From: Micromussa lordhowensis
Lineage: Eukaryota; Cnidaria; Anthozoa; Scleractinia; Lobophylliidae
Reading direction: 5' to 3'
Length of the DNA: 64,000 nt
Assembly (NCBI GenBank): GCA_964020085.1
Contig: OZ026607.1
Coordinates: 20,743,106 to 20,807,105, forward strand
The translations under genes and the position numbers were made by a program. This document shows positions 2,356 to 44,823 of this stretch, one piece after another. The stretch's first letter is position 1. Each line of letters starts with the position of its first letter. The notes beneath the pieces are model-generated. The model made no database searches and had not been told where the DNA came from. It saw only the letters and a program-made list of their open reading frames with translations.

Positions 2356-5005
2356 ACATCACTCTCTGCAGTGAACACTTGATCATGAATGGCTTCCGGT
2401 GACATCCATTTGATTGGCAGTTTTCTGGTCTTTGTAGAATGGTACACTTTCTCAGTGTACACGTGACGCGACAATCCAAAGTCGGCTACCTTGACTAGCT
2501 TGCCTTCACAAACGAGGACATTTCTCGCCGCTAGGTCACGATGGACGAATCCTTTACGTGACAGAAACTCCTATGTAAAGTAAGAAATGGAAATTTTGAT
2601 CACTGCAACATAAGTTGTTAATAAAAAGGAAAAACAATCTCTCGACATTATGTATGAAATTCAGCTCGTACCATTCCCTTCGCTATCTGCCATGCGAACG
2701 TCATTAGGTCAGCGGGTGCGAGAGTATCATCGTCATGTAAGTTGTCAGTATCAGTCTTGATACTCCGATAAGAAATATCTGCACATCTGTTATTGTCGCT
2801 GGTGCACTGAAAAGAGAAAAACACTTATTTTAAGTGTATATGACATTATTTTTTTGTATCTTCCTTATGAAATCTCAACGATACCTTAATTTAGAAATTG
2901 AAAAATATGTTACTTTTTCACCGCATTTTAGCCCTGTGAAAACGGGCCTGGGGCTAGTCAGGCCATGGCAAGAACGTAAGTAGCCGATTCCATCAAGTAA
3001 ATAATAAAATATATGTCATTTAAATAATCAATTAGTTGCCACAGGTCAGAGCAGGGGTAAAAAAGAGGGGGGGGGGGGGGGAGGAGGGTGGAACCCTTCT
3101 CTTGGCGTTTCGTTGTAATGAGACCCACGAGACATAATTATGTTAGTTATTTTACTTTGCAAGATGACATATTTTTAATATGACGTCGTTAACCGTATTC
3201 CTGGATTTCACTATTTAATCAGAAACTCCGAAAATAACGTGAATTCATGGGGGATTAAAGATCCAAAATGATACTAAAATCTAAAATGGTACCAGCCTTG
3301 TGAATATTGCCCGAAAAAACTGGAAAACGTTTTTATTTCTTACTATGGCAATATGAAATGTCATGGAGGCAGTTGACATGTCAAAGTCTCGGCGAGGGTT
3401 GAAATTCGGCACTATCGAACACTAATCCATCTAATGGGAAAGGCTGGAGGATTTCTACTCCTGACCACTACCGGTTGCCACAGTCTAACTTTTTGCTTGG
3501 AACAAATAGTGCAAAGCGAATAAAACAACAATGATTACTTCATCTAAGCTCCCTTCACTTATGACTCCTTCGATTTGATAATGTGGCGCTGCATCTCCCG
3601 TCGCTTCAAAAGCTTGCGTGATCTAAAATGTACAACAAAATAGTAGAAGTTTTGTGAGTTTTCAAGCCTTCTGTTTGGCGAGTCTTTACTCTCACATTGG
3701 CTCTCTCCACTTGAAAGTATTATGGGAACTGGCAAATTATATAAGCTAGGGCAACCTTACAAAGAGCTATGACCGGAGTGTCCTGATTGTCGCTTGCTGC
3801 AAGATATCCCTAGGGGGGAGTGGTAATACTTCTGCTTGCTTATGCTGCAGAAGAGAAGGTAAGCAGGAGAAGCTTAAGTATGATGCAGTAAGGTCCTCAA
3901 CTTTTGTTTTACAGTCAACGTTATTTCATCATTTTCTTCGGTAAACGGTCGAAATTTACATTCCTAAATTTTGGTTTATAACGAGCACAGAAAACCGTTG
4001 ATGAAATCTTGGCATTTTTTTAAAATAGAAAACTATAAGTTAATAACCACAGATGATAGCCCATAACTATTTGAAGAAGCAAAGAAATAGTCTAAGGGAA
4101 CAGAAATACTTTTCTGTACCTCTTCACTGAACGGCGCCAGATCTAGACCATTCGAATTTGCTCGTGTTTCCAAATTTTCTCAACTTAGAGAATACAGTCA
4201 AAGCCCTCTATAACGCCACCTCGACGGAAGAAAGTGGCAGTTTTATAGAGATGGCCGTCAGTGAGGTTGGACTATATTCAATGAAATCAAAACACAGTTT
4301 TGGTAAATAGGCCGGTTTTCTAAAACTTACTGACCAAATTAAAAGTCAGGTACAATTTTCAATTATCTCACTTTACCTGCTCTCTTCTTTTCCTGAGGTA
4401 GTGAAGCAAATCCCCATTCTTTGCAAACTCCACTACAAGGAACATGGGATTTGTCATAGTACAGCAGGCCAATAAATTCAATATGTTCAGGTGATACCCG
4501 ATTTGTTTCATGAGCTGTATTTCCTCTAGGAATTCTTGCATTTGTTCTTCTGTGGCACCATCTAGTAAAGCAAAAACATAATACATCACAAATACAAGGG
4601 TGAGCGTCAATTAAAACTGAAAATTGAATACTATCACTATTATTTCACGAGATTACCAAAATAGTTAACTCAAAATATATCACTCTTTGCGACTTTTCAT
4701 TTCTTCGGTATCAAGACTTTGAAAGGTTGTTTTAAGAACCTTATCCACAGTTATAGGTTATAAAACGTTGGCATAACCAAATCATACTTTGTAACATTTT
4801 CACAGCAACGGTCAGGCCCATCTTCATTTGCTGCTGCTCGTTGTTCGTCTTGCGCTGCGAAGATTTCTTTTCTTTTCCAACATCCATAGTTTGTTTTAAA
4901 AGCCTGCCACTGTATACTTTACCAAAAGCTCCTTCTCCAATAATCTTATTCAAGGAAATGTCATCAAAACGTACTTCAAACAAATCAGTGAATTCTGAAT
5001 TGGAT
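2356..5005 (-). CDS. Gene A kinase-domain exons 8-12 (N-lobe to activation loop)
   Basis: Exon 5005-4788 holds the juxtamembrane part, IIGEGAFGKVY and VAVKML. Exon 4561-4377 holds the alpha-C Glu region (EEIQLMKQIG) and hinge (VVEFAKNGD). Exon 3622-3539 is a 28-codon kinase insert. Exon 2806-2672 holds ADLMTFAWQIAKGM. Exon 2570-2356 holds HRDLAARN, ADFGLSR and KLPIKWMSPE. Reading through the last donor meets TAA immediately after ESDV, so intron retention would give a kinase lacking helices F to I. Confidence 0.82.
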
Positions 5006-8000
5006 CTGAAAACATCAAGAGCTCGTTTAAACATAGGAATTACGCACGCTAGTTTATATGGTTTTATTTGTGATTTTATTTTAAATTTCATTCTGTGAAA
5101 TTTCTCGAAAATTTTCCTGCTGTGGAAAAACTGGTCAGACAGATGTCCTTTAAAAACGAGCTCGAACTAAGGCAAAATATTTATTAACAGTGTGGAATTT
5201 TCTTTATAGAATTTCACGAAATAAAACGCCCGAAAATTCCACCTTTGAGTGCGCGTAGAGTATTATGCGCTTGCCGTCGTACAACTGTAGGGAGCCACCT
5301 TGAAATCATCAAACAATCAATTTAAGATAATATAATTTTTTTTCTGTAAAATACTTTCTCCAAGTTGCTTTGGCTATTTGGCACGAGAACAAGGAATGGA
5401 GAATATTTATTTGTTTTTTTTTTTCAATTAATATCTGTTGGTATTACTTTTTGTGGTCTAGACCGCAGCCTTAAATTGTTTCTTGTGTTGCACCAAGTTT
5501 ATATACGTCACACAAGTTGACCTATAAGCTGCCTACGTTCATATTTTTTTTTAAATAAAGCATACGCATTATTAACTGAAGCCGACCGGGAGTATTCTTT
5601 ATACTTTATACTCACCGACTCTTTCTACGATATCTAAAAGCAAGCCATAATACTCCACTTAAACATAGCAGAGCCACAAGCGAGCTGCCCACGATTTTCG
5701 CTACCAGTGGCAAAGAGGATTCCCCAGTGCTTTGACCATGATAAGTCTCATTGTATAGAGGATTTCTTCCTATAGAATCCGAATACATCAAAGAGGGAAA
5801 AATGACAACACCAATTAGATAACGAAGATATTTCTTTGACAAAACATGTTACGTCATCTTGTCTACTTTTGAAATCTGAACCTGTCTTTTTAAACTCGCT
5901 GTTATCATTATCGTTATTATTATTTCAACGCTGCTTGTAAATTACTTTAGAATAGAATATTCCTTGGTGGTAAACAACACGAATGGTTTAAAGTCTGATA
6001 TAATAATAACAATGATTATTAGTAAAAAAACCTCGGCAAACGTTATAGCTTATATCAATTCTTGTTAGGCTACAGAAAAGGCTACGAAAAAGAACTTTTA
6101 GATTCGGATGCATTCAACAAGTAACGCCGATGCAACAGATCGTTAAAGAAAGGGATTCTAGGTTGGGGAATAGTCTTGTAGGTCCTCCCTCGTATCACCT
6201 ACAGAATATTCTCCCACCACATAAGAACAGGGCCCTACGCGATAAATCACATCCTTACCAGGTTAATACTGATTGGTTTGAAAACTGCTTTGTAAAAAAT
6301 TGTAAAAAAATTAATAGATGACTCTTTGATTTCAAATAGATTGTATTGTCAGTTTTTAGTCAGTGTTGGGACAGTTTTTAAATCCGTGAGTATCTTGTTA
6401 CCCTAAAACTGAGAAAAAAGATCTTTATTTATTCATTTCTTTATTCATTTCTTGCCTTTACGTCTTAGCATAATTCTGACAATCACTTTAAATGACACTT
6501 TATAATAAAGGCATTCAGTTCTACGCCTTTGGTGTCCGTATAAAAGAAGGTTTGAGTGTGTTCTTAACACTCAGAGCCGCCTCAAAAACAATAATAAAAA
6601 AAAATAACTCAACTCCATAATGAAAACTAAGGAACATACTAGAGCACGAAGTCGAAAAAGGGCATCTACCTTGACATTTGTGCAAATTGCAGCTCTCTGT
6701 GGAGATATTTGTCCCAGGGCAATCCTTTCCGTTCCATTTTGGTGCTGGATTAGAGCATGTGCGAGCACGTGTCCTGTATCCCCCTCCACACGTCACGCTA
6801 CATGGTTGCCATGACGACCACTGGCTCCAACTGCCATTCACTGGTGATTAAAGGGAATAATTCATGACATGAAAGCCTTAGAAAGTGTATAAACTGTTAA
6901 CTTTTAGAATTGGTAGTAACTCTAAAATGGCGTTTCTTGTACAAAACGACTTCACGGTTCACGAAAAAACGTTTATACAAAACCTCCCGTAAGTGGCCAC
7001 CCAAAGGGACAAGCCAAGGTGTTCACTTACGGGAGGTGGTCGCTCACGAGAGCTTAGACCATAGTTGATCAAAATTTTGTATCATCAGCATATTGTAACC
7101 GCAGAGACCTGCCCCATTTTTAATACATTATATTTATGCAAAAAGTCGATTTTGAGAAAAAAATCTGGTACTTACGGAAATTAATGTTTAGTTTAGATGT
7201 TAATGTTGGCTCGGGACCCAAATGCTAATCATCCTACTTAATATTAGTAAGGAAAATATAAAATTTGTAAAGTGCGAAGTGATCAACTAGTAACTAACCT
7301 TCAACAAAGCGGTAAACAAATATGGTCCACCTATCTCCCACGCTATACTTCCATAAACAATTGTTGGATTGTCCATGTCTGTTGTATGTCATGGCACCAT
7401 CCACTCCACTCCAGCACTCATGGCGAAATTCCACGCCAAAATACCAGAATCCATACTCAAAGACTTCAGTAGCACATTTGTGAATAATGGCAGCGAATGA
7501 ATTGGCCAAATCTGTCTCGTTGACCGAGTACTCTTGGACTAATACTGGTAGAGCTCGTGTAAAGTTGTCTTTGAAACAACCGACTGGTTCATACGGATGC
7601 AGCCCCGTCTTATCTGTGTAGAAAAGACCAGATCATCATCAACCTATACTATATTTCATTTTGCCATCTTGCAAGAATGGGGGCCCAGGTTTCATGGCCT
7701 TTTCGGTACAAATCATAAAAGATACTAAATATCGAAAACTAACTCAGCTCCGAAATGAAAAGATTCAGCAAGGAATACACCTAGCATCAAAATAAGCCGG
7801 AATCATTTTAGGGAAAATCATCTACCTATACAGTTGTGCAAACTGCAGCTCTCTGTGGAGATACTTGTCCCAGAGCAATCCTTTCCTTTCCACTGTGGCG
7901 CTGGATTAGAGCATGTCCGAGCACGTGTCCTGTGTCCCCCTCCGCACGTCACGCTGCATGGTCCCCATGACGACCACAAACTCCAACTGCCATTCACTGA

Positions 8001-10982
8001 TGATCAGAGGGAACAATCCATGAAATAAAAGCTTTAAAAAGTGTTTAAACTTTTGACGTTTTTAGTTTTTGTAATTTACCTTGACATTTGTGCAAGTTGC
8101 AACTCTCGGTGGAGATATTTGTCCCAGGGCAATCCTTTCCGTTCCATTTTGGCGCTGGATTAGAGCATGTGCGAGTTCGTGTCCTGTTTCCCTCTCCACA
8201 AGTCACGCTGCATGGCTGCCATGACGACCACTGACTCCAACTGCCATTCACTGCTGATTAGAAAAAAAAACAATCCATGACGTGAAAGCTTTTAGAAAAT
8301 ATATCAATTGCTGAAGTTTTGAATTGTTAAAATTGATTCGCTTTTGCTCCAACTGATTGCGTTTTAAGATGACCATGGCGTTTCTATATAGAAAAAGCTC
8401 TTCTCGTTCACGACAAAATGTATATGGCTTTTGTTCAGTATTCCAACCCAGTGGACTGGAGAAACCAAGAGCCTCATCGAGGCAAGCACTTAATACCAGT
8501 TTACATACAAATTTCTAGAACTAACAGCAATAAATACTTAGATCAGTTGACTTGGCACCAAAACAGTAATCATTCTTTTTTCCTCCTTTATTTATACGTG
8601 AGAAAGTGTAATTTTACGAGAATTGAAGTAAACAGGAATTTACGGTTACCACACACAAACTGACGCACACAAAATACACTGTATGTACTTTAAAAAAAAG
8701 TTCACCTAGTTCACCTGGTTAATACTAGTCTAGTTACATATCAAGGCTTGAACTCAACTTCTTATGAAAAGAATGGAGAATATTATTCTTGTGTGCAATA
8801 TACAATTCAGTATGATATTTTTGTACTTAACATAATTTTAAATGACTGTATACTGGGTTTCGCATTATTTCTTTTACAATGATAAATTTCTCATTTTCGA
8901 ACTAAAATACAATAATTCAATAATCCTACATAATATACGTTTATATAAAAAATATAAAGGTTTAACTTTGTATTTTAAAACAGGTCGCAAGAAAATTGTT
9001 ATCCTATTAGAACTTCAGATAGATCAAAAACAATAGCTAACACTGATTTGAAAGACAAGACAAACCTGAGATAGCTTAAACACAGAAAGTTCTTGGCCGG
9101 TAAAAGAAAAATTGTAATCTCAGATGGCAAAGAAACGAAATATCTTGTTAAAATGCAGCAATAATTTGAAACCATGAGAAATCTTTAATAACTTAACAAA
9201 CTAGCAACATGTCTTCTCACGCATCCATAACACCAGTTCCCAGACTCTCACACTACTCGTCAGAGAGTTTAATTCCCTGTAAATTGATTAATTGGTGCTA
9301 CTACCTTCAACAAAGCGGTAGACAAACATGGTCCATGCGGATCCCACGCTATAATTCCATAAGCAACTGTTGGATGGCCCATACATGTTGTAAGTCAAGC
9401 TACCATTCACGCCAGTCCAGCATTGGGAGCGATATTCCAGGCCAAAATACCGGAAGCCATTCTTAAACACTTCAGAAGCACACTCGTGAATTATGGATGC
9501 CAGTGAATTGGCTAAATCTGTCTCGTTAACACTGTAGGTTTCTATAAATATTGGTAGAGCGCGTGGATCTTTTTTATCTTTAAAACAACCGACTGGTTCA
9601 TAAGGATGCAGTGTTATGGTATCTGTGTAGAAAAGACCAGATGTTCATTTAGTGAGAAGTCAAGCTATCAACCTGCATAGCTGGTTGTTGTGGTTGCGCA
9701 TTTTACGAGAATTTCTCAAGTCTACAGCTCTCCATTTATCTTGCTATTGCGGCATTAATTGACGCTCGTTTACCGCTTGCCAGCTATTTTGTATTTTGAC
9801 AAAACGCAAGAACTGTGGCACCCAGGCAAACAAGATGTCATGGCCGCCATATCATACATTTATAAAACACAGCCCATGCAGCCAATTCTTGGAGAGATAC
9901 ACCCACCTGCATACAATAAAATTGACAAAAAAAGGTCCAGAGCCCTGTGAAAAATTAATTTGAAGAAAACGTTGCGAACTAGTAGCAAACAGGAAATAAC
10001 TGTAGATTTATGAACTCTGTGAGAGATCCAGAATAATAAACACGACAAATGACTTAAGTAGCTTAGGATGAGAACTTTTAATATTCTGGCCTTGGCATGT
10101 TGAATTAGTTAGTAAAGGAAAGGCAGGAAAATATTGGCTCTAAACTTTGAAGACAGTACTTGAAACCATCGTGTGCAATCAGCACTAGCTTTGCGCTGAA
10201 GCGAACATCACTTCGTAAAATATTTCTCGATTTCATTTCGGTTGGATACTCCTTAATATTTAGCCTGTAAAGAAGGGCGAGATTCTGTTGAAGAAAAGAA
10301 ATATATCCTAGTCAGGGATGTATTTTTCGATGCTTAAATTTAAAACGAATATTATCATCTTTAGTGTTAAACGTTTCGTGAAAAGGGTCTACACGGACAA
10401 TGTTTCTGAGTGAGAGATTGAGTGAAGATAAAGAACTGACAGAAAAAAAAAACCGTTTGATATGAACTTTCATTATACAAAAACTAGTGGCATACCAATT
10501 GGCAGCAAATCGATAAAAATGATATCCCACATTTGGGGATATCATTTTTATCCATACTGAGTGTGATATGTTTACTGATATCATTTTTATCCCTTAACTG
10601 CACTTAAAATCCTCGGAAAGTGGTCGGAAATCTTCGGAAAACCGCCAAAAACGTCGTTATGTATTATAATAGTTTTATGTATTGATAAAGAAAACTACAT
10701 GGTCGCTTGAAGTTACGAAATTTCTCTCGTCACGTTGAAAATACTTGAAGAGAAATTTCGCATCTCCTCGCGCCCATGTAATATCCCCTAATTTCAGCAT
10801 CGTTGTTGCTTTCAAAACGGTATCTCATGAAAATACGTACTTGATTGTGAGGTTTTGCTCTGCGAGATGCCTTCATTCGGCCAAGTTTGTAGTATTACGA
10901 TTCCGATGAACATCAATCCGCGATGAAAATTTGCGTTGAAAATGATCCCTGGCTTGAAATTTTCACGGGAAAGAATTCTCAT
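2356..10982 (-). CDS. Receptor tyrosine kinase A (WSC-TSP1-TSP1-WSC-TSP1-TM-kinase), 3' exons not visible
   Basis: Predicted single-pass cell-surface receptor that would phosphorylate tyrosines after binding an unknown ligand. Exons, all on the minus strand with GT/AG borders and matching phases: 10982-10841 signal peptide; 9622-9305 WSC-like; 8250-8080 TSP1; 7996-7826 TSP1; 7613-7299 WSC-like; 6840-6670 TSP1; 5769-5616 transmembrane; 5005-4788, 4561-4377, 3622-3539, 2806-2672 and 2570-2356 kinase. These give 759 codons plus 2 nt. The kinase contains GEGAFGKVY, VAVKML, HRDLAARN and ADFG. The final donor (gatgt|gtaag) implies more exons, but counterparts of the last three exons of B and C (about 110 residues, C-lobe) are not found between 2355 and 1. 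Either the gene is 3'-truncated or those exons lie beyond the left edge past an inserted gene. Kinase class is FGFR/Cad96Ca-like by motif recall only. Confidence 0.82.
5616..5769 (-). CDS. Gene A exon 7, transmembrane segment
   Basis: 154-nt exon, entered in phase 1 and left in phase 2 (agtcg|gtgag). It encodes a short stalk with an N-glycosylation-like NET, then a helix around IVGSSLVALLCLSGVLWLAF and a basic stop-transfer RYRRKS. Confidence 0.85.
6670..6840 (-). CDS. Gene A exon 6, TSP1 module 3
   Basis: 171-nt exon: WSQWSSWQPCSVTCGGG to ESCNLHKC. It ends at donor caag|gtagat and is the membrane-proximal module. Confidence 0.88.
6983..7037. repeat. Short hairpin repeat in gene A intron
   Basis: CCTCCCGTAAGTGGCCACC (6983-7001) is inverted at 7019-7037 with two mismatches. 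It looks like the terminus or remnant of a dispersed element. Confidence 0.6.
7299..7613 (-). CDS. Gene A exon 5, WSC-like module 2
   Basis: 315-nt phase 1-1 exon, one codon shorter than module 1. It carries HPYEPVGCFKD, YFGVEFRHECW and FVYRFVEG. Borders are ctacacag| and gttgaag|gttag. Confidence 0.8.
7826..7996 (-). CDS. Gene A exon 4, TSP1 module 2
   Basis: 171-nt phase 1-1 exon with WSLWSSWGPCSVTCG and ESCSLHNC, following the previous TSP1 by only about 80 bp of intron. It has no ATG of its own and is easy to miss. This extra tandem TSP1 is unique to gene A. Confidence 0.85.
8080..8250 (-). CDS. Gene A exon 3, TSP1 module 1
   Basis: 171-nt phase 1-1 exon encoding a thrombospondin type-1 repeat: WSQWSSWQPCSVTCG then six-cysteine spacing to ESCNLHKC. 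The W-x-x-W-x-x-W (C-mannosylation) and CSVTCG (O-fucosylation) signatures are present. Confidence 0.88.
9305..9622 (-). CDS. Gene A exon 2, WSC-like module 1
   Basis: Phase 1-1 exon of 318 nt. It starts after ctacacag, ends at gttgaag|gtag, and carries HPYEPVGCFKD, the YFGLEYRSQCW block and FVYRFVEG. The four cysteines and the GCF/YFG-EY-CW pattern resemble WSC or apple-type carbohydrate-binding domains. The assignment is by eye. Confidence 0.8.
10512..10552. repeat. 17-nt perfect inverted repeat in gene A intron 1
   Basis: GATAAAAATGATATCCC (10512-10528) is inverted at 10536-10552, with a further half copy near 10577-10594. The remainder of 9623-10840 is AT-rich intron with no other recognisable element. 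Confidence 0.7.
10841..10982 (-). CDS. Gene A exon 1, signal peptide
   Basis: The ATG at 10982-10980 opens 47 codons ending in phase 1 at donor caatcaa|gtacgt. The hydrophobic core is GLMFIGIVILQTW, preceded by a polar stretch (MRILSRENF). The inner Met at residue 24 could be the real start, since gene C can only use a start near that point. An acceptor-like sequence (tttctcctcag) lies just upstream of the ATG and hints at a 5' non-coding exon. Confidence 0.7.
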
Positions 10983-15433: not shown

Positions 15434-15436
<3 letters not shown>

Positions 15437-17242: not shown

Positions 17243-17369
17243 ATGAGGATTCTTTCCCGAGATCATTTCAAGCGAGGAATCCTTTTCAACCCAATTTTTC
17301 ATTCCCGATTAATGTTCATTGGAATCGTTATACTACAATTTTGGCCAGATGAAGGCATCTCACAGTCAA
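17243..17369 (+). CDS. Gene B exon 1, signal peptide
   Basis: ATG then MRILSRDHF and hydrophobic core LMFIGIVILQFW. It ends phase 1 at cagtcaa|gtacgt, which matches the phase of the WSC exon. An acceptor-like ctccatacag lies 4-10 nt upstream of the start, so a non-coding exon may precede it. Confidence 0.72.
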
Positions 17370-20300
17370 GTACGTGTTTTATCATTAGATACCATTTTCC
17401 AAGAAATAATAATATTTAAATTTTTGGCCGTGGAAAGGTTCCTTTCAAATGTTTTTGTGTCAGTTATATGTCTGCTATCAGGCATCGCTTACTTAGAAAC
17501 GGTGTCCGTAAAAACGTTTTCACGAAAAGTGTAACATCAAAGATGGGTAATTAGTTTAAAACGAAATCATTAAAAAATATACCTCGGACTAGGATTTGTA
17601 TTTTTTTCTACAACAGAAGGTCGCCTTTCTTAACAGGCTTCAAAAGCACCAAAAGAAAGCTAAACGAAAAATCTTTTACGAAGCAATGTTGGCTTGAATT
17701 AACGCAAAGCTAGTGCTGTTAATGTTACTACGGTTTTACAGACTGCACAGGTCGGTTTCAAGTACTGTCTTTACGAGCCAATGCTTGACAGCTTTCCTTG
17801 TACTAACTACTTCAACAAGCCAGGGCCAGAATATTAAAAGTTCTAGTTCTAAGCTAAGTTTAGTCATGTATCGTGTCTACTGTTCTGGGTCTCTGACAGA
17901 GTTCATAAATCAGTGATTTGTGGCCTATGATCCTTCTTGCCTTAATGTAACAGATTTTCATCGAATTAATTTTGGCTCTGGACTGTTTGTTAAATCAATA
18001 AACGGCTTGTTGTGTGCAGGTGGTTGTATCTCCCCAAGAAATTGCTGCTTGAGCTGTGTTTTATGATTGTACCAACGTGGCCATGACAGTTCATTTGCCA
18101 GTGAGCTCCTTCTCGCGCTTCGCGATCTGAAGACTTAAGAACTCCTCATGCAATATACAGCAAGAAACACAAGCCATGAAGGTTATGCATTCATAGCTTC
18201 TCTTCCCTGCTAAATGATTATCTGGTCTTTTCCACACAGGTGCAACGGTAGTGCATCCGTATGAACCAGTCGGTTGTTTCAAAGATAGAACTGATCCACG
18301 CGCTCTACCAATATTAATGAACGACTACTCTGTCAACGAGACAGACTTGGCCAATTCACTCGCAGCCATAATTCACGCGTGTGCTACTAAAGTGTATGAG
18401 AATGGCTTCTGGTATTTTGGTGTGGAATATCGCCGCGAGTGCTGGAGTGGAGTGAACGGTAATATGACCTACAACAGATATGGTCCATCTCACAAGTGTT
18501 TATCGAAATACGGCGTGGGATCTGCATGGACCATATTTGTTTACCGCTTTGTTGAAGGTTAGTTATCATGCAGTTAATCACTTCACATGGAATTTAGCTA
18601 TCTGAGAGGAACTCTGAAGGTCTGGGAAATAGTGTCATGGATGCATAAGAAAATGCCGTATAACGGTTCCCATGCTTCTGTACATGAAGGTTTTAAACAC
18701 TAGTTCATAGATAAAGAAGTAATGCTGTTTTGTCTAATGATCAAAGATTTTTAATTTTTTGACATTAGAGATTAGCTTTTTCATTTCCTTTACCGGTATG
18801 GCCAAAATCTTTTTGTGTTCAAGCCATTGCAGTGTCTTTAAGTGTTTTGTCTTTCAGTGTTGATGATGTATTTGGCAAATATTTAACAAGGTAATAAGTT
18901 TCTTGCGAGCTGTAAAAACAATTTTAAAACAGATTTAAACCCATTGTTTGCTAACCGAATGTTATGTAGGATGATTAGAGTTTGGATCACTAGTCAGCTG
19001 ATCTAAATATTAATTTCCGTTAGTTCCAAAATTTTCTATGTAAACTGGTATTAAGCACCTGCTTTGATGAGGTTTTTGGCTTCTCAAGCTCTTTGGATTG
19101 CAACTACCGAATAGAAACCATACTGAACATTTTTCTCGTGAACCGTGAAATCTTTTCGTACAGAAAGGCCTTGGCCATCTCTGTAAGGGCGGATCCATCG
19201 ATCTGGTTTGAAAAATAGATTTCGCTTATTTCTTGTGTGTCCCGAGACATTCATGTACTTATTCTAAAACCACAATCCGTTGGATCAGATCTTTTAAATT
19301 TTTCGTGTTTTTCGGTTCACCCGATTGGAGGCCCATTTTACGGCCATTGTCAACACCTAGATTAAACACATCTTTAAAAATTAATTTAACAGTAAAAGAA
19401 GAACAAAATCTGCACAAGACAAACACCACTGTTACTTATAATACGCCTTCATAATGTGCCAAACTGATTTTTATAAACATGGAATTCGAACCAAGCATTC
19501 AGCGAGACTTTAAGGACACAGTCATATCGTGCAGCATGATGAGACACGCAAAAATGGATCAAATTCAAATTGTAATTTTGAAAAAGTGGGACATCCTGCT
19601 CCCGTCAAACCAACACAGTCTAAAAGTGGATACGCTAGAAAATGACTCTAGGGAAAGAAACCTTGCGGTACAACTGATCTCCGTGGTGAAATATTTATGG
19701 CCTTGTAAACTTACCGAATTTCGACGGTATCCATGTTCTTCCTCCAAGACTTAAAACGCAATCTTAGAGCATAAGCCGATCAGTTTTTAACAATTCAAAA
19801 ATTCATCAGTTTATACACTTTCTAAGGCTTTCATACCATGGATTGTTCCATTTAAATCATCAGTGAATGGCAGTTGGAGCCAGTGGTCGTCATGGCAACC
19901 ATGCAGTGTGACGTGTGGAGTTGGAATGAGGGCACGTACTCGCAAATGCTCCAATCCAGCGCCAAAATGGAACGGAAAGGATTGCCCTGGGTCACATATC
20001 TACACAGAGAGCTGCAATTTGCCCAAGTGTAACGGTAAATGCCTTTTTTTGAAATATTTTACCTTAAAATGATTCTGGCTGATTTTGATGCCCTAGTATG
20101 TTCCTTGCATTTCATTTTGGAGCTGAGTTACTTTTTGATTTTTGCAATATTTTATAGTTGTACCAATATGGCCATGGCAGTTGATTTGCAATGGCGCCCC
20201 TTCTCGCGTTTCTCGATCTGGATACTTAAGAACTTCTCATGCGATATACAGCAAGAAACACAAGCCATGCAGGTTACACACTAAATGATTATCTGGTCTT

Positions 20301-26962: not shown

Positions 26963-26999
<37 letters not shown>

Positions 27000-34676: not shown

Positions 34677-34872
34677 AAGTTACATAAAAAACGCGTCGGC
34701 AGAAAATAAACCAATACCATCTATTAACTAAACAGCGAATTGCAGCAACTTTGTCTTAGGTTTCAGCTGTTACTATTGTCGTGACGACTGCATGCTTTAT
34801 TTTTCTCCATAGAGCCATCGCGATAAAAAGATCCTTTCCCGAGAACATTTCAAGCCAGGAATTTTCAACGCA

Positions 34873-34948
34873 ATGTTTTATTGCGGATTGATGTTCATCG
34901 GAATCGTAATTCTACAAGCTTGGCCGAATGAAGGCATCTCACAGTCAA
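34873..34948 (+). CDS. Gene C exon 1, shortened signal peptide
   Basis: MFYCGLMFIGIVILQAW then GISQS, ending phase 1 at cagtcaa|gtacgt. The frame is open upstream (the REHFKPG block is still readable), but there is no Met because the ancestral ATG near 34823 is ATA. Confidence 0.65.
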
Positions 34949-37900
34949 GTACGTATAATCATAAGATACCCAACTTAATTTTGCAAGAAACAATGATGTT
35001 CCAATTTCGGCCATATAAAATGTCTTGTGAAACAAGTTTTGTTTCAGTTCTGTATCGCTATTCTATCGCTCACTCAGAAACAGAGTCCATGACAACATTG
35101 TCAGGAAATATCGATTGCATCGAAAAAAATATCTCTGACTAGAATGTGTACCTTTTCGATAACAGAAGGTCTCCTTTTTGACAGGCTTAATAATATACAT
35201 GAAAAAATTAATCAGCTCTGATTGGCTAAGAAATTTAGAGCAGGAGTGCAAATTTGTAACATGAGTGCAAATTTGAAAGAAGAGTGCAAATTTAAAACAC
35301 GGGTGCAATTTTTAAACATATGTGCAAATTTGTGACACGGGGGCAAATTTGTAGCACGAGGGTAAATTTATAACATGAGTGCAAATTCGAAACACGAGTG
35401 AAAATTGGAAACGCCGATGCCAATTTGTAACACGGGTGCAAACTACAAACGGGTTCCGATTGGCTCATAAACAATAGAAACCACTGAGAGCCAATCACAT
35501 AAGAGCTGTTTCTATAGAAAATATTGGCGGTAATTCTGAGATTAGATGCAGGAAAAAATGGCGGGGCTTTTCAGCAAGTGACGATTTAGTTTTGCTAGTG
35601 TAAAAATAATAGAACAATTGGGAAACAAAAACCTGAATACAGTGAAAAGTACTGCCTTCTGGCTATACGTGTGGAAAGCGTGGCGTGAAGAGGAAAAGAT
35701 CGACAACAAATCGAGAAAAAGGAGCCTAAAAAACTAATCGAAACTTTCTACGCTGAAGTTAAAAACAAGATCATTCTGATAGAACAGTTTACTTTTGCTG
35801 ATTGTAGTACACCAAGTTTTCTTTATAAGTTGTTTGAAGTCAATCCATTCACGTTTCCAAGTTGATAGTTGAATGAATTGTCAATGATGGCGTTGTGAAA
35901 GTTTGAATTTGACAAACGCTGTAATATGTTTCAGCCAATCAGTTGAATGAACTTCAAATAAAAGCGCGCTGTCAAAATTTCCCTTAATTTAAAATTGGCG
36001 TAATTTTCTGTCCACTTTTTTTTTAAATTGCTACAAATAGTCAGTCTTTACTTGTGATTATTTCACCAAATTGCACTCGAAATCACGCGACTAACTATAC
36101 AAATATCAAGGTGAACCCTAACAAAATCTAAAGATAAATCTTTTACGAAGTAATGTTGACAACGCAGAGGTAGTGCCGTTAACGTTACCATGGTTTCTAA
36201 GACTACAGACGACGGTTTCAACTACTGTCGTACAAGTTTAGAGCTAATATTTTACGGCCTTCCCTGTACTAAACTCTTCAACAATCATGGCTAGAATTTT
36301 AAAAGTTCTATTCCTAAGCTATTGAAGTCATTTATCGGGTTTATTGTTCTAGAGGATCAATCAATCAATCAATAAACTTTATTTAATCTCGAATTTACAG
36401 TGTAGCACTCAAGTGCTAATATCTTCGAGCTAACTACATTAATAAATAACTATAATAAAAAGTTAATTCTATAACAAATAACATAATTAACTACTTAGAC
36501 ACTAACTTACAAATTATCGTGATGTAGAAAGGTTTGCGGTTCCTGCCCCTTTAAGTAAATTATTGTTCCCAGTAGATATCAGTCGTCGAAAAGAAGTAAA
36601 ATCAGAAATAGTGCGGTAATGGTCAGGAAGAGAATTCCAAGTTGTTGCTGCCAAGTAACTAAAGGAGGATGTCTCACAGATTTCATATATTAGTTATATG
36701 GCAACCCTTCTTGCCTAATGTGACAGATATTCACGAAATACATTTTGCGCAGGGCTCTGCACTGTTTGTTAAGTCAGCTGAACAGCTTGTTGTATGCAGA
36801 CGGCTGTATCTCTCAAAAAATTGGCTGCATGAGCTGTGTTTTATGATTGCAGCGATATTGCGATTGCAACCTATTTGCCTGGGCGCCTCAGCTCGCACGA
36901 AAATGAATATTAGAGCTCTAATCTAGAGACCTTCTCACGCAATACATGTATACAACGAGAACCGCAAGCTATGCAGGTTGTTTTTTACAACTTGACTTCT
37001 CTAATAAATGCTCATCTAGTCTTTTCTACACACAGATACAACGGCATTACATCCGTATGAACCAGTCGGTTGTTTCAAAGATAGAAGATATCGACGTGCA
37101 TTTCCAAAATTAGTCGATAAGTACCCTGCCATGATCAACGACAATGATATGGCCAATTCACTCGCAGCCATAATTCACGCGTGTGCGACTGAAGTTTATA
37201 AGAATGGCTTCTGGTATTTTGGCGTGGAATATCACCATCAGTGCTGGAGTGGAGTGAACGGTAGCTTAACTTACAATAGAAATGGACCATCCCACGGATG
37301 CTTGTTCGATCAGGGCGTGGGAACTGTATGGACCATATTTGTTTACCGCTTTGTTGAAGGTTAGTTACTAGAGGGTCACATTACAGAGTATTCAGTATCC
37401 TAACACTTCACAATTCTAATAGTCTGGGATTTACGTGTAGTGCCGTGATGCAATATAATGGTACCCAGGCTCCTGCACTGTCGGGGGAGTGCAAAGAAAT
37501 ATCATTAGTTGTAGGTTGATGAAGAAAAATTGCCGTTTTATTCATTATTGTTAACTTTTGACCAAACATTTAATTTAGTTTTTTGCCATCTGAGATAAGC
37601 TTTTGCATTCCTTTTACCAGTATAGTATGACCAGGACCTTTCTGTGTTCAGGACATTTCAGTTTTTTCTGTGACTCATTCTTGTTTGGGGTGTTGTTGAA
37701 CGATGAGGCAAATTATCAGAAGATGACTGCTTTCTGGTGATAAAAATTTCAACCCTTAAGTTTTGCGCACTAATATTATGACTCCACGAACAGCCTCTCC
37801 ATTGTCAGTGAAAATCTAATATTCTTGATATCTATTTTTAAACAAGTTTTTAAATTTTAAACTTTAAGGTTTTAAATACCCTTAAATTGTGCTTACTTGC

Positions 37901-40900
37901 TTAAATTGTGCTTACAGCATTCGGGCCATCCCCAGTCGACTGATCTAAATATTAATTTCCGTTAGGGATCAAAATTCGTATTTGTATTTGTGTATTTGAT
38001 CAGACTGTTGGCTTCTCCTGCTCCCTTATGGGAATACTGAATAAAACCGTGAACCTTTTTGTCGTGATCTGTGAACACTTTTGTACGAAAGCCTTGCACA
38101 TTGACTTTAAAGCATGCGGTAATCATTCTTTTTTTTGCAATTCAAAACTTTCATGTCATGGATTGTCTCTTCTAATCATAAGTCAATGGTAGCAGTTGGA
38201 GTCAGTGGTCGTCATGGCAACCATGCAGCGTAACGTGTGGAGGGGGGAACAGAACACGTGCTCGGACATGCTCTAATCCAGCGCCAAAATGGAACGGAAT
38301 GGATTGCCCTGGGGCAAATATATCCACAGAAAGCTGCAATTTGCACCAATGTAAAGGTACGTAGATGTGCTTATTTGAATTTTTTAAAATTTTCCTTAAA
38401 GTGTATTTGAAAACAATTTTTTTATTTGCTTGATGGAATCTACTTGGCGACATGAAATGGAAATCGAAAATGGATATATATCGTTTTGTTCTCACTACGC
38501 CTTAGCCATCAGTAGACGCAGTGAAACCTTACTTCCAATTGTGTGAGGTGTTAGGACATGAGATCAGCTTGGCCGACTTTAAAACAAGACTTTTTTTACT
38601 ATTTTGAACCAAAATTGGAACTACACGAGAGTGCCTAATTCCTAGTACATTTCACTTATTTTTTTCTATTTGTTTCGTTCGAAAGATATGTCCAGCTACG
38701 TTCTTGTTTTAGCTTTAGGGCCTAACTAGTCTCAGGCTTCCACCTCGCGCGATTTCCGACCCAACCGAGAGTGATTTTGTTTTTTATTTCCACATAACGA
38801 TCTAGTGCATATTTTTCCAACGACTCTTTATTTTTTACGATTATTTTACAAATAGAGATATTACTTACAATATTAACTTACTACTACATACAATACTAAC
38901 ACTACTTCTACTACTACACTACTTACTCCACTAATGCTTGTTCCAATATTCCATCTGGTAAACACAAAATACATCTTTCATTTACACTTTTACTTTATAC
39001 GCTGTTTTGGCGTTCCGGGCTAGAATTTGTTTCCTCTTCAACTTGGAGCTGAGTTAGTTTTTGGTGTGTGACTCTGAGTCTCAAGCATACACTCGAACCC
39101 TCGTTTATACGGACAACAAAGCAAACTAACTGAGAGTCTGTGTTATGGAGGTGTCCTTGCAGTGAGAAGAAATTCCACCGTATATTATCTAAATACTAAT
39201 TAAGACGTACAGCTATGAAATGTAGTAGCTACATCGTCGATGTTTCTGTTTAACAATTGTTGTCATGGTAAACCAGTTTAAACCTTGTATGGTTTTTCTA
39301 TGTTGTTTTCTGTCCACAAAGGTATATTAAAAGAAAAATTAAACATTGTTCTGAGCTTGCAAAATTATTTACAAGCGACAGTGACTTGTCAATAATGATA
39401 TCAAAGAGTATGAAATAGACTGGCTCTCGTTCAAAAACAAAACAAAATTATAATAAAATATTATTGTAAAAGAAGTAAATTCGTTATCTGCATGGTGTTG
39501 TCGCATTTGGTTTTTTATTGTATCCACACTCTGTAGGAGGTAATCTCCTTCACAGCACCAACACTGGGGAATCGTCTTTGCCACTGGTAGCGAAGATCTT
39601 GGGCAGCTCCATTTTGGTTTTGCTTTGCTTAAGCGGAGTACTATGGTTTGTGTTGAAATATCGTAGAAAGCGGAGCCGGTGAGTATGGAGAACACTCTTG
39701 GTCTGCTTTAGATGCATGCCGGGTAATGCAGCCACGTGGTTCAGCTGAGAAGAAGCTAATGAATTAGGACAGGGCTATTTAATCTCATGAATAATTATTC
39801 AAGGATAGGAATGAAAAAATTCAGTTATGAATTCATCTGAGTGAGGTTTGAAGTTTTATCAACACAATAAACATTATTAGGCCATGGTCTAGACCACAAA
39901 AAACTAAGTAACAACAATAAATATAGATAAACAAAAGAGCACAAAAATATATATATATTCTCCAATCTTGTGCCACATAGCTAAAGAAACTGCGAGAAAG
40001 AATTCTACAGAAATTGTTCTATTATTTCTTGATTATACATTGTGAGAAGTATTTGTTTAAAGCTCAAGTTCTTGATTCTTTTATACATGTTTTCAGATCC
40101 AATTCAGAACTCTTCCAGGATCCTCGGGAAGTCCGTTTTGATGACGTTACCTTGCAAAAGATTATTGGAGAAGGAGCGTTTGGGAAAGTATACAGTGCAA
40201 GGCTTTTAAAACAAACTATGAAGGCTGGAAAAGGACGGACATCTCCGCAGCGCAAGACGGACAAAGAACAGCAACAAATGAAGATGGGCCTGACTGTTGC
40301 TGTGAAAATGTTGCAAAGTACGATTTGCTTATGTCAGTGTTATATACTCGAAACTCAACTCCTTTAACGACTTCGATATTTAAGGAATTTTCAGTCTTTA
40401 TAATGATGCCTCCAGCAAAAAAGAATGAAGAAAACCAGATATCAATGCGTTTCCCGTCAGACTTTCCCGCCCTTTTTCCTAGCTTACAAGGGATTCAGAA
40501 ACATATCTCTCAGACGATTATTAAATCGGTAATCGAGCTCACAAAGTTTACAGGTTTATCACATAGAACTCTACGAAAGATTGAAAACGCCGTTTACCGT
40601 TCCATTTGCAAATATCTGCATGGGTTCCGGAGATAAGTTTCAAAAATGAGTAAAATATGCAAATGAGATGACTGATCACGCCATACAGTCAACCAAATAT
40701 TACATATTACATCAAGCATATAAATAGAGTTATCTCGGTCAATTTGCGGCAGAAACCATTGAAACTTGGTAGGATAAAAGTTCTAGATGCAACACACATT
40801 AAGGCTCAGATTTGAATGATGCGATTTTCGTCGTAGTAGTACTTTGAAACTACCATTTAAAGTTTTTATGTTGGTAAAATGCCGGGGTCGCAGAGTGATA

Positions 40901-43710
40901 TATTTTGAGTTTACCATTAGCGACTTTCATATAACCCGCAATGCATTTTGTTTTCCCCACAAAAGTTTGCATAAACTATTGTTTTCAAATACACTTGAGA
41001 ATAGATGACAATAGTTTATGCAAAATTTTGTGGGGAAAAGCAAATGCATTGTGGGTTATATGAAAGTCGCTGATTGTGGTAATTTCTTGAAATAGACGTA
41101 AAAATGGGATAGCGTTTATTTTTTTCGGTTTTATTGGCCGTGTATTTGTTAGTTATTATGTTTAAAAATTGTAATGACTAATGCTTTCAATTTGTGCTAT
41201 CCTAGATGGTGCCACAGAAGAACAAATGCAAGAATTCCTAGAGGAAATACAGCTCATGAAACAAATCGGGTATCACCCGAACATATTGAATTTATTGGCC
41301 TGCTGTACTATAACAAATCCCATGTTCCTTGTTGTGGAGTTTGCAAAGAATGGGGATTTACTTCACTACCTCAGGAAAAGACGAAAGCAGGTAAAGTGAG
41401 ATAATTGAAAATTGTACCTGACTTTTAATTTGGTCAGTAAGTTTTAGAAAACCGGCCTACTCAATTACCAAGACTACTATTTATTGACTTAATTCGATAC
41501 GATTTAACCTCTCTTCAATGCAATGGCTTCTGTCTCCAAGGTTATGTTGTGGAGACCTCAGAAGTTTGAATGTATTTTCTAAGTTGTGAAAATTTGGAAA
41601 CACGAGTAAATTAGAATGTCCTGGCGCCGTTGAACGGGTGCAGAACAGTAATTTAGACACCTTTGGAATTGTTTGGGCTGTTGTTTCCCGCTGGTTATCT
41701 ACTTAGAGTTTCCTTTGAAACACGTGGGAAGTCTTCATAATCAATTCGTTTTCCTAGGCTGGATATAAACCAAATTTCTTTAAATGCGAGTTTCAAGAAA
41801 GCATCTCGCCCGAATGACGCAAACAAACCATGAACATAACAAACGTTTTAAAAGGACCTTACTCCATCATTCTGAAGATTCTCCTGCATCATAAAGTGAG
41901 CAGAAGAGTACCCCCACCCCCACCGTCACTTTCATAGGTTTTTGTCAGGTTTCTCCTACATGTATCCTGCATACGGTGGTTGCGCCTTCACAGCCGAGCT
42001 CCGAATCAACACGATAATAGTCTTTTTCTTTGCAGCTAACAGAAATAACGACAATATTTAGAATGCTCTAGCCTCTTTCAATACTTAACTATAAAATTCT
42101 GGGTGTAAATTGACGAACAACAACACATTTTTGTTTAAAATGACACAACCTATTGTTCTACCTGGCGACAGTCGACGAACTACGAGCAACGAGAGAGTTG
42201 CAGGGCGCAGGCAACCCAGTTTCGGCGCCAAATTAAAAGCTTCACTTGAAGACAAAATGTTCCATATTTTTCTTATTTTACAATCTGTTTTGGTTTTTTG
42301 AGGTTTGTAAAACCCTTTTTGTGTCTATTCAATGGTATCTCTAGTAAAAAACGTTGCCCGACTTCAAATGCCTTCGCTGTTTTAACTGTTAACATCGGTG
42401 CAGTACACTTTTTCCCGCTTGCTGAATCCTGATTGGTCAATTCAAATTTCACACCGACCGTAATATAATTTGTGAGTACCCATAATACTTTTAGGTGGAG
42501 AGAGACATTCGAGCGTAAAGACACTTGCCAGAGAAAATGCCTCACACACCATAGAACTTTCGACTAATTTGTTTTACTTTTTAGAACAAACAAGCTTTTG
42601 AAGCGACGGAAGATGCAGCACTTCAGCACTCAATATATCAAACAAAAGGAGTCATAAATGAAGGGAGCTTATATGAAGTAATTATTCTCGTTTATTCGCT
42701 TTGTAATTTTTAGTCCATGCGAAAAGGGAGACTGACGCCACGTAGGTCTACGTATCAATCGAAAATGTTTACAATTTTGAACCATATTGGAACAACGCTT
42801 TAGCGTCTAATTCCTACTATATTTCACTTGATTGGTTTCGCTTTTATTGGTTTAGTTTGAAAAATATCTCAATTTAAGTTATTCTTTTGAGGCTTTTCCT
42901 GACTATCCCCAGACCTCCGCCTTATGCGGCTTAGTGAAATTGCCTGTGTTCAGAAGGCTAAAACGCGGTGAAAAAGCAATGATGTCCAATTTTATTTTTT
43001 GATTTCTAAATTAAGATGTCTTGTAGATTCCATCAAGCAAATAAAACAATTTCTGTCATATACACTTTAAAAAATTTATTTTTTTCTTTTCAGGGCCGCG
43101 ACAATACGAGATGTGCAGATATTTCTTATCGGAGTATCAAGACTGATACTGACAACTTACATGACGATGATACTCTCACACCCGCTGACCTAATGACGTT
43201 CGCATGGCAGATAGCGAAGGGAATGGTACGAGCTGGATTACATGCATCATGAAACGATTGGTCAATATGTTTACAATTTGCAATATTAAGATTAATGCTT
43301 TGATGGCCTTTTTGACAAATTGTTGTTTTCCTCTTCATCAACAACTTCTTTTGCGCCTTCCGCAGTGATCAAAATTTCCCTCTTTTATTGTATGTAGGAG
43401 TTTCTGTCAAGGAAAGGATTCGTCCATCGTGACCTTGCGGCGAGAAATGTACTCGTTTGTGAAGGCAAGCTAGTCAAGATAGCCGACTTTGGATTGTCGC
43501 GTAACGTGTACGCTGGGAGAGTGTACCATTCTACAAAGACCAGAAAACTGCCAATCAAATGGATGTCACCAGAATCCATTCACGATCAAGTGTTCACGGC
43601 AGAAAGCGACGTGTAAGTTTAAAAGTATCACCCGAGGGGAGTTGGTGACGTTCTAATAAGCGAATTTGGTTTTATCAACTGGGTTGATAAAACCAAATTA
43701 TCTTGTAATA

Positions 43711-43747
<37 letters not shown>

Positions 43748-44823
43748 TGCCCCCTGTGTTCTAATAAGCGGTTTTAATCAAATCCAAATTAAATTAACCG
43801 CTACATACGGAGTTTGCTGATTTGGGTATCTTAGTTAAATATATTCTACCGTTTTTAGGCTACAGTTATTGTTTAGAAATAATTTGGCGAGAAAAGTGGT
43901 CAGAAGATAATTACATTTGCAGTGCTCACAATTCAAAACCGACATTGTAACGTGCTGGCTAAGATGGAGTAGCCAAGTATCGAATTGAATTTTGATCAAA
44001 TATGATAAACAAGGATATCTCAGCCAATTTAACGTTATGTCTTTCTATTAATCATGACTATATCTTAACAGGTGGGCGTATGGTATTCTACTTTGGGAGA
44101 TTTTAACAACCGGTTAGTTATTACTCTTTCTTTGGACGAGACATTTTGGAATCTATGTACCCTTGGCTGGTTTCAGAAGTTTACTAATTTTTTAGGCTTC
44201 TTTGCAATTACGCATGCCACAGTTTACTTACTTATAAACACAACTGCTTGGATCAGTTCATCACTCCATGTTCTACTTGGCTGTAGTTCAGAAGGGCTAT
44301 GAATGATCTCACTTATAAATACAATTGAATATCTTCAAGAAAGTGCGAAGTATTGAAATCGGGGCTTGGACTTGAGTCCGGGATCTGCCAGCGCCTAAGA
44401 ACATGCTATCGCTGCCCCATAAACTGATCTTTTTCTTTGATCTCCTTCTTTCTTTGTATCTCTAGGTGGGACGCCATACCCTACAATGAGTAATCGCGAA
44501 CTTTTTGGAGCTCTTAAAGCTGGTTACAGAATGGAAAAACCACAGATGTGCTCGGATGAAATGTAAGCTTTTCATTTCAACCCGTTCTTTTCATGAAATG
44601 ATAACTGACACCTTCCACTCTTCTTCCCAGGTATGAGTTGATGCGAGAGTGTTGGAAAGAAGAACCCACTGAAAGGCCATTGTTCACTGTCATACGGGAA
44701 CAAGTTGAACGGATGATGTTACACCATTGTCCTTATTTGGATATGGCTGACGCAAAGTATAGTTACGCACCATGTTATGACGTTGATAGTGACAAAGAAA
44801 CGGAACTAGAAAGCACTTTGTAA
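34873..44823 (+). CDS. Receptor tyrosine kinase C (WSC-TSP1-TM-kinase), complete
   Basis: Smallest ectodomain of the cluster. Exons: 34873-34948 signal; 37036-37359 WSC-like; 38183-38356 TSP1; 39537-39678 transmembrane; kinase 40097-40317, 41206-41390, 42585-42677, 43094-43225, 43398-43612, 44072-44112, 44466-44562 and 44631-44823 (stop TAA). The total is 1893 nt (630 codons plus stop), with every phase consistent. Motifs: GEGAFGKVY, VAVKML, HRDLAARN, ADFGLSR, KLPIKWMSPE, WAYGILLWEI, CWKEEPTERPLF. Catalytic residues are intact. The 5' end uses an internal ATG because the start used in A and B has become ATA with a nearby indel. Confidence 0.87.
35220..35455. repeat. Degenerate 20-bp minisatellite
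   Basis: About 11 units of the form GAGTGCAAATTTGTAACAC, spaced near 20 bp, in gene C intron 1. TGCAAAT is the best-kept part. Confidence 0.8.
36355..36660. repeat. Probable dispersed repeat with (ATCA)n end
   Basis: Begins with tandem ATCA followed by ATAAACTTTATTTAA and an AT-rich body. This resembles ends of dispersed elements in cnidarian genomes. The family is not identified. Confidence 0.4.
37036..37359 (+). CDS. Gene C exon 2, WSC-like module
   Basis: 324-nt phase 1-1 exon: HPYEPVGCFKD, YFGVEYHHQCWSG, FVYRFVEG. It is two codons longer than the modules of B, in the loop after GCFKD. Confidence 0.82.
38183..38356 (+). CDS. Gene C exon 3, TSP1 module
   Basis: 174-nt exon with WSQWSSWQPCSVTCGGG and ESCNLHQC. 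One extra Ser codon lies before the first Trp. The acceptor is the weaker atcataag. Confidence 0.85.
39537..39678 (+). CDS. Gene C exon 4, transmembrane segment
   Basis: Stalk STNTGESSLPL, helix ILGSSILVLLCLSGVLWFVL, basic KYRRKRSR. Acceptor ctctgtag, donor agccg|gtgag. Confidence 0.85.
40097..44823 (+). CDS. Gene C kinase-domain exons 5-12
   Basis: 40097-40317 carries the glycine loop and the charged insert (RKTDKEQQQMKMGL) before VAVKML. 41206-41390, 42585-42677 (insert with SIYQT and SLYE tyrosines), 43094-43225 and 43398-43612 (HRDLAARN, ADFG, VYHST) continue the domain. 44072-44112, 44466-44562 and 44631-44823 complete the C-lobe and a tail ending ELESTL, as in gene B. Confidence 0.87.
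40919..41071. repeat. MITE with 64-nt inverted arms in gene C intron
   Basis: Arms 40919-40982 and 41008-41071 (AGCGACTTTCATATAACCC outermost) are reverse complements with a few mismatches, around a 25-nt loop. Confidence 0.82.
41990..42240 (+). mobile_element. Partial LTR plus leader copy of the Ty3/gypsy-type element
   Basis: Matches the reverse complement of about 45370-45130: ACACGATAATAGTC-TTTTTCTT, GCAGCTAACA, AATTCTGGGT, AAATGACACAAC, CTACCTGGCGACAG. It is an inserted fragment in the gene C intron, in the orientation opposite to the copy right of the gene. Confidence 0.6.
43663..43699. repeat. Short palindrome in gene C intron
   Basis: AATTTGGTTTTATCAAC and its reverse complement are separated by a few bases, forming a tight hairpin. 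Confidence 0.7.

Follow-up and report, generated by a model that had tools for sequence, protein, structure and literature searches.

Receptor tyrosine kinases (RTKs) with WSC-like and TSP1 modules in their outer part are predicted from a 64,000-nucleotide stretch of the genome of the stony coral Micromussa lordhowensis (G000:C13:20743106-20807105, hereafter the window), and systems already described resemble them in one respect or another. Human Kremen is a membrane-anchored protein. Similar to the coral family, Kremen and the fungal sensor Wsc1 display an outer WSC module on a membrane protein but, as far as the accessible part of the source goes, they have no kinase and contain eight cysteines in the module rather than four (PMC9024836). 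Hydra Sweet Tooth (Reidling 2000, as cited in PMC3531485) is a receptor kinase of a cnidarian, and its outer part is of lectin type. A 2017 eLife survey of cnidarian TSRs reports TSP1 modules in anthozoan proteins and implicates TSR domains in symbiont colonisation, and its main text, in the form available, contains neither 'kinase' nor 'WSC' (PMC5446238). Finally, fibroblast growth factor receptors (FGFRs) have highly similar kinases and differ from the coral proteins scanned by their Ig modules and by falling in a separate clade.

At the coral locus the WSC-like modules, the TSP1 repeats and the kinase appear to be encoded by single genes. We consider it probable (roughly 0.7) that these genes represent an intact, selectively maintained family of stony-coral RTKs whose outer part is of a glycan- or matrix-binding kind. 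The analysis shows how the genes are built and in what order their domains stand, together with the catalytic motifs, purifying selection, the joint distribution of the exons and the kinase clade; surface display, ligand class, clustering and signalling are proposed.

Gene structure at the locus

An exon-peptide search of the window together with flanking sequence (177,000 bases in all, including 2,500 N, within a genome of 580.8 Mb on 1383 contigs) identified four complete RTK genes of the same build, A, B and C in the window and D to the left of it. The preliminary description of this DNA had placed three neighbouring paralogues at 2356..44823, and all three are present, with B and C whole; gene A is incomplete in that interval, as its exons K5-K7 and stop codon lie outside the window, and D is a fourth member beyond the window. 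Position 2356 is the final base of the K4 exon of gene A, and 44823 the final base of the stop codon of gene C. In all four models the junctions are GT-AG and phase-consistent, and scripted translation gives a single terminal stop. The order of exons, signal peptide followed by WSC and TSP1 exons, the transmembrane (TM) exon and the kinase exons K1 to K7, is identical in the four intact genes, the signal peptide and TM segment of the window genes having been judged by eye. The modules are arranged as WSC-TSP1 in C and D, WSC-TSP1-WSC-TSP1 in B and WSC-TSP1-TSP1-WSC-TSP1 in A. Exons for WSC and for TSP1 have symmetrical phases (1-1), and modules can thus be gained or lost with the reading frame intact.

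Gene A occupies the minus strand from 10913 to 2356, with three further exons at C13:20737977-20736712, beyond the window; K5-K7 and the stop sit 5.1-6.4 kb left of it, which rules out a C-terminal truncation of the gene. Its model begins with a signal-peptide exon (MFIGIVILQTWPNEGISQS...; 10841..10913), which has a similar peptide near the start of the Orbicella protein P0210, and continues with a first WSC-like exon (9305..9622), two TSP1 exons (8080..8250 and 7826..7996), a second WSC-like exon (7299..7613) and a third TSP1 exon (6670..6840), both WSC-like exons being matched by Pfam WSC. The TM exon (5616..5769) is followed by K1 with the glycine loop and VAVK (4788..5005), K2 (4377..4561), K3 (2672..2806) and K4 with HRDLAARN and DFG (2356..2570). 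Upstream of gene A, at 11488 on the minus strand, there is an extra copy of the signal-peptide exon that lacks the usual ATG and looks like the relic of a duplicated 5' end.

Gene B is on the plus strand (17312-27953). The model comprises a signal-peptide exon (17312..17369), a first WSC-like exon matched by Pfam WSC (18240..18557), a first TSP1 exon (19864..20034), a second WSC-like exon (20311..20628) and a second TSP1 exon (21172..21342), the last three also seen in the Pfam scan, then the TM exon (21749..21905) and the kinase exons K1 (22620..22798), K2 (23352..23536), K3 (24835..24969), K4 with HRDLAARN and DFG (25389..25603), K5 (26556..26596), K6 (27598..27694) and K7 with the stop (27761..27953). 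The in-frame stops of its last exon represent the short K6-K7 intron, which is common to all four genes, and gene B is not, therefore, a pseudogene.

Gene C, also on the plus strand (34891-44823), consists of exons for the signal peptide (34891..34948), the WSC-like module (37036..37359; gene model and Pfam scan), the TSP1 module (38183..38356), the TM segment (39537..39678) and the kinase: K1 (40097..40317), K2 (41206..41390), K3 (43094..43225), K4 with HRDLAARN and DFG (43398..43612), K5 (44072..44112), K6 (44466..44562) and K7 with the stop (44631..44823). Gene D, intact on the minus strand, lies just left of the window at C13:20732709-20724500.

Between K2 and K3 a pattern search revealed an additional in-frame exon, K2b, in A (3539..3622, a phase 0-0 kinase insert), B (23945..24037) and C (42585..42677); the same search gave no match in gene D. 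Counterparts are found in the proteins P0121, P0124, P0157 and P0160. By coordinate arithmetic K2b would add 28, 31 and 31 residues to A, B and C, respectively. When it is not counted, the models have 11 (D), 11 (C), 13 (B) and 14 (A) exons and encode 584 (D), 818 (A), 745 (B) and 593 (C) residues.

The features of RTKs in general are all found in these models: a signal peptide, an outer part, a single TM helix and a kinase with the catalytic Lys, HRD and DFG. The glycine loop, VAVK, HRDLAARN and DFG are conserved in the four kinases.

Joint placement of ectodomain and kinase exons

A genome search with the WSC exon listed 130 rows, 29 of which, at >=68% identity to the query, constitute the family; the remaining 101 are non-family, apart from two short fragments of family exons that were not counted. 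As the genome exon searches score the best candidates alone, these and the following counts are lower bounds. A family kinase exon lies on the same strand within 20 kb downstream of 26 of the 29 listed family WSC exons. The remaining three are apparently parts of a single gene at C13:21.29 Mb; behind them come one TSP1 and one TM exon and, at 21303527, a partial match to K3, and no match to K1, K2 or K4 was found there in the 10 kb read. Conversely, a family WSC exon is located upstream of all 14 listed family K4 exons (two of them partial), and the 60 other kinase rows are all more than 50 kb away from every one of the 130 WSC rows. The random expectation for joint placement is 0.007, a figure that must not be taken as a probability because tandem copies are not independent. 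A chance join of ectodomain and kinase is, nonetheless, ruled out by the 14 of 14 K4 exons with WSC upstream and the 0 of 60 other kinases near WSC.

The protein P0016 points in the same direction. A frame of 511 residues on a contig of 1781 bases, presumably from an SRA assembly (source tag 'lgn'), reads WSC-TSP1-TM-K1-K2-K2b-K3, and its WSC/TSP1 and TM/K1 joins are those predicted for the Micromussa genes; such an uninterrupted frame is what would be expected of spliced RNA. The 923-base contig of P0160 similarly contains TM-K1-K2-K2b-K3. The prediction from genome sequence that ectodomain and kinase exons form one gene is thus supported, and the join of WSC-like and TSP1 modules to a single-pass tyrosine kinase, as first proposed for this locus, holds in the four open models.

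Kinship of the kinase

Two kinase trees were computed from rows hand-picked among 234 proteins, the first with 53 rows and the second with 58 rows and 315 columns. Sequences with no end motif or frame were omitted from tree 1 (P0016, P0211, P0217, P0198, P0159, P0163, P0181 and P0218, together with our own L003-L008), and of these eight proteins P0016 and P0218 stayed out of both trees; tree 2 omits three long or distant rows (P0088, our own L001 and P0106). Genes A-D form a 100/100 clade with P0001, P0002, P0003 and Orbicella P0121. This coral clade is nested in an invertebrate group supported at 97/98 in tree 2 (46 rows) and at 91/98 in tree 1 (43 rows), the members of which have names such as Ret-like, torso-like, Cad96Ca-like and Kit-like and carry FN3, CUB, MAM, PAN or lectin modules, or none that is recognised. 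Judged from these trees, the kinase belongs to an invertebrate Ret/Torso/Cad96Ca-like group. It should be emphasized that this label reflects database names alone, as no vertebrate RET is included in the tree, and that insect Torso rows fall outside the 46-row group. Identification as RET by cadherin-like outer modules is not borne out, no cadherin match being present in gene B, P0001, P0002 or P0003.

Other members of the 46-row group differ in their outer part, where amphioxus P0149 has FN3, Nematostella P0140 MAM and Oculina P0139 CUB, while in Saccoglossus P0166, as in some others, the part is different or none is recognised. Hydra P0147, P0182 and P0184 carry C-type lectin, PAN or EGF accessions in place of WSC and TSP1; P0147 and P0182 belong to the same wide kinase group but to a separate Hydra clade. 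C-type lectin-like modules of the Sweet Tooth type were not found in gene B, P0001, P0002 or P0003. More distant is P0088 of Saccoglossus kowalevskii which, like the coral family, combines TSP1 repeats (four), a TM segment and a tyrosine-kinase-like domain, but has no WSC match, contains HGN in place of HRD and sits on a very long branch outside the group. P0088 is probably an independent join of TSP1 and kinase, and possibly a pseudokinase receptor.

Distribution and previous descriptions

By sequence identity, the nearest members of the family come from two stony corals, Orbicella faveolata and Oculina patagonica. Predictions with the same order of WSC-like module, TSP1, TM and kinase as A-D exist in Porites lobata (P0002), Oculina patagonica (P0001) and Stylophora pistillata (P0003), and P0002 reproduces the five-module order of gene A, WSC-TSP1-TSP1-WSC-TSP1. 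These three differ from A-D in module number, and the P0003 model lacks the K3 stretch. Among the matches listed (the best 120 of 427 and the best 120 of 2720), WSC, TSP1 and kinase occur together in P0001, P0002 and P0003, from three stony corals, or in P0016; in the same lists there is no such combination from Acropora, Montipora, sea anemones or Hydra, which is a weak absence. In those lists the relatives from sea anemones and Hydra have either no Pfam accession or different ones, which we take to be MAM, Calx-beta, C-type lectin, PAN and EGF. This points to stony corals rather than to all Cnidaria, and the earlier suggestion of a cnidarian-specific family should be narrowed accordingly. 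A protein search with WSC only matched P0001 and P0016 alone, because shared five-letter words were required.

The architecture is real beyond chance expectation, and the predictions indicate that it is common to several stony corals; no family name for it was found. Searches of full-text literature returned no publication joining WSC, TSP1, tyrosine kinase and coral, and an earlier description may exist in supplements or in most subscription papers, which lay outside the search. The titles and abstract beginnings of the papers listed on coral kinase expansions do not mention the combination. The available portions of three related articles contain, respectively, no WSC and no thrombospondin (Yeung 2021, PMC8662651), no 'kinase' (coral tandem duplications, PMC10236652) and neither thrombospondin nor WSC (coral FGFR, PMC8764167), and P0001-P0003 were not found described as a family in the text accessible to us. 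The view that the combination is foreign to FGFR, Eph, Tie and ROR stands, in that we could name no family that has it.

WSC-like and TSP1 modules

In gene B the Pfam scores are 315.7 bits for the tyrosine kinase, 87.4 bits for TSP_1 and 37.9 bits for the two copies of WSC, the kinase and TSP_1 scores greatly exceeding their cut-offs. TSP1 (PF00090) is thus clear, and also exceeds its cut-off in P0001, P0002, P0003, P0016 and P0210 (34.9-103.8 bits). All seven TSP1 modules of the four gene models contain WxxW and CxxTCG, which are signals for C-mannosylation and O-fucosylation. The WSC assignment is weaker. The curated cut-off for WSC (PF01822) is 27.8 bits, a value exceeded by the two-copy gene B and by P0210 (39.4 bits), with P0001, P0002, P0003 and P0016 below it. 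WSC is, however, the sole family matched by each of the 13 modules examined by Pfam scan (best E 7.5e-7). PAN/apple had been named as an alternative identity of the first module and is rejected, as the Pfam scans give no PAN match; WSC itself has a PAN fold. Ig, cadherin and C-type lectin matches are lacking in Pfam scans of gene B, P0001, P0002 and P0003. In the predicted structure of P0001 the kinase part is mostly confident, and a 36-residue helix (291-326) corresponds to the TM segment.

Selection, copies and turnover

No pair of modules reaches a dN/dS of 1. The values are 0.30-0.42 for the kinase (6 pairs), 0.32-0.66 for WSC (15) and 0.07-0.65 for TSP1 (21), which argues that function has been kept; whole-module averages of dN/dS give no indication of positive selection. 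Identity is 59-82% among WSC modules and 77-87% among kinases. The outer WSC part diverges faster than the kinase.

Family copies are located at C13:20.72-20.87 Mb, C13:21.29-21.34 Mb and C3:4.30-4.50 Mb and on contig C523, with a relic on C10. Gene B has a copy on C3 that matches the window at 96-98% identity, introns included, and that is either a recent duplication or a second haplotype. More broadly, C3:4.30-4.50 Mb, on a chromosome-size contig, and the small contig C523 hold near-identical partial copies of the cluster, again representing a second haplotype or a recent segmental duplication. Some copies have decayed: that of gene A on C523 contains stops and frameshifts, and in that of gene C at C13:20857266-20864360 the WSC frame and K1 are broken and part of K4 is inverted.

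Elsewhere in the genome, C3:12.02-12.69 Mb contains twelve K4-type kinase exons, 53-57% identical to those of the WSC-TSP1 family, which make up another tandem kinase family. Distant WSC-like modules (~24-40% identity) occur in tandem at C14:4.38-4.45 Mb, C8:1.31 Mb and C5:32 and 38 Mb; none of these arrays on C14, C8 and C5 is within 50 kb of any listed kinase row.

Function and competing explanations

TSP1 modules bind proteins and glycosaminoglycans. A model can be proposed in which the signal peptide would route the receptor to the cell surface, where one or two WSC-like modules, to judge from homology of PAN/apple-type fold, would form a short extracellular rod together with one to three TSP1 modules, with a single helix spanning the membrane and an active-type Ret/Torso/Cad96Ca-like kinase inside. 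The WSC modules would most likely bind a carbohydrate or glycoprotein of the matrix, of neighbouring cells or of microbes, and the TSP1 modules may supply contacts with sulphated glycans or proteins as well as spacing. Clustering of the receptor by a multivalent ligand would then allow the kinases to cross-phosphorylate tyrosines of the activation loop and tail, and signalling to begin. Shuffling and multiplication of phase 1-1 exons, combined with tandem gene duplication, could have generated a repertoire of receptors that share the kinase and differ in their outer parts.

As to the ligand, SiWsc3 binds beta-glucan and the WSC of Kremen acts in protein complexes, according to the accessible part of one source (PMC9024836). 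By analogy, sensing of carbohydrate or matrix is a plausible first choice, with a host protein as its main rival. It could be argued that the principal ligand is such a protein, a growth factor or matrix component, and that the WSC and TSP1 modules serve adhesion or development rather than the sensing of sugars or microbes. TSP1 modules do bind proteins in many systems, and purifying selection, with no pair above a dN/dS of 1, is unlike an arms race; the role of Kremen WSC modules in protein complexes, as given in the accessible text (PMC9024836), favours the same view. The decayed copies, suggestive of fast turnover, and the faster divergence of WSC fit recognition at least equally well, and none of this evidence is direct. 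We accord a host ligand real weight without favouring it.

Returning to the carbohydrate- or matrix-sensing receptor, a narrower version of it would assign the family to innate recognition, in which WSC reads algal, bacterial or matrix glycans, TSP1 aids docking and contact leads to tyrosine phosphorylation. We regard this version as decidedly doubtful. If it is true, the family would provide the TSR-dependent step of the coral-alga symbiosis with a signalling receptor.

Several observations weigh against the proposal of a WSC-TSP1 receptor encoded by single genes. With respect to the modules, single WSC copies score below the Pfam cut-off (C 23.0, D 26.2 and the first copy of B 25.4 bits). 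The WSC hallmark, in the available part of the source, is eight cysteines on a PAN/apple fold, with two PAN-core and two WSC-specific disulphides (PMC9024836), and the 13 modules examined have only four invariant cysteines. By position the four that are retained would map to one PAN-core and one WSC-specific disulphide; the module is, on its sequence, degenerate, and is written 'WSC-like' because of the four cysteines. The predicted model of the WSC module is weak (mean pLDDT 64.2), its fold comparison yielded no match at E <= 0.001 and two meaningless ones at E ~9, and a profile of the module matched no solved WSC structure in the PDB. In the full model of P0001, pLDDT falls below 50 over the TSP1 part. 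With respect to the unity of the gene, sequence that by eye resembles intron follows K3 in P0016 and is present at both ends of P0160, and the annotation of Orbicella splits the two halves into separate proteins: P0210 (LOC110055071), with a signal peptide and WSC-TSP1-WSC, and P0121, a 'Tie-1-like' kinase that starts in K2, without TM or K1. Each is on a contig of 453,113 bases.

The C-terminal residues of P0210 align with the intron behind the WSC exons of the window, and its end therefore reflects either a read-through model or a truncated or intron-retaining isoform. The second case would correspond to alternative transcript ends, through which one gene would give a membrane receptor and, in addition, a secreted form of the WSC-TSP1 ectodomain with the role of a decoy or matrix protein. 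The P0210 model stops in the intron that follows its second WSC exon, as would be expected of such a gene, and in the window read-through meets a stop at once behind four of the five WSC exons and after four residues behind the fifth. As gene predictors also produce ends of this kind, we think alternative ends unlikely, if worth bearing in mind.

A more radical possibility is that two adjacent genes, one for a WSC-TSP1 protein that is secreted and another for a receptor kinase, have been joined on paper alone. The annotation of P0210 and P0121 apart from each other, on contigs each 453,113 long, is in keeping with this, but P0210 ends in intron-aligned sequence and P0121 lacks TM and K1; both halves are, moreover, joined in P0001, P0002, P0003 and P0016, and the constant exon order of the four intact genes and the WSC exon upstream of each listed family K4 argue in the same sense. 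Two genes are thus very improbable, and P0210 and P0121 are better read, on their sequences, as one split gene.

Weakest is the suggestion of a coral FGFR with a replaced outer part, which draws on FGFR1 having the top PDB kinase match (268.8 bits, RET 267.5 bits) apart from a two-kinase EGFR entry, whose 307.5 is higher because two kinase repeats are summed, and on the database name of P0003, 'Fibroblast growth factor receptor 1-A'; it is scarcely credible, as a tree forced to place the family and eight FGFR rows (two identical) in one clade is 49 log units worse (p-AU 0.0006), the family lies in the separate 46-row group at 97/98, and gene B, P0001, P0002 and P0003 have no Ig match.

Should the stony-coral receptor family be as it looks, it would constitute an RTK class hidden by annotation as FGFR1-A or Tie-1-like. 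Its outer part would be of a carbohydrate- and matrix-binding type, and a receptor that combines TSP1 modules with a kinase could be tested as a direct candidate for the signalling of symbiont contact. It would also document that the broad invertebrate Ret/Torso-like kinase group has repeatedly been given different outer modules, FN3, CUB, MAM, PAN and lectin among them, and here WSC-TSP1.

Neighbouring sequence

Two short tandem repeats, with 38- and 30-base units, are located at 723-1067 and 1579-1700 of the window; the latter lies in an open frame with QIPPAQVPA repeats, for which there is no Pfam match. On the other side of the cluster, between gene C and a satellite array, is the remnant of a retroelement pol gene on the minus strand (46228-47183), with an RNase H (46752-47183) and an integrase core (46228-46893). 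The satellite, of ~75 copies of a 219-base unit, adjoins gene C and extends from 47424 to 64000, the end of the window.

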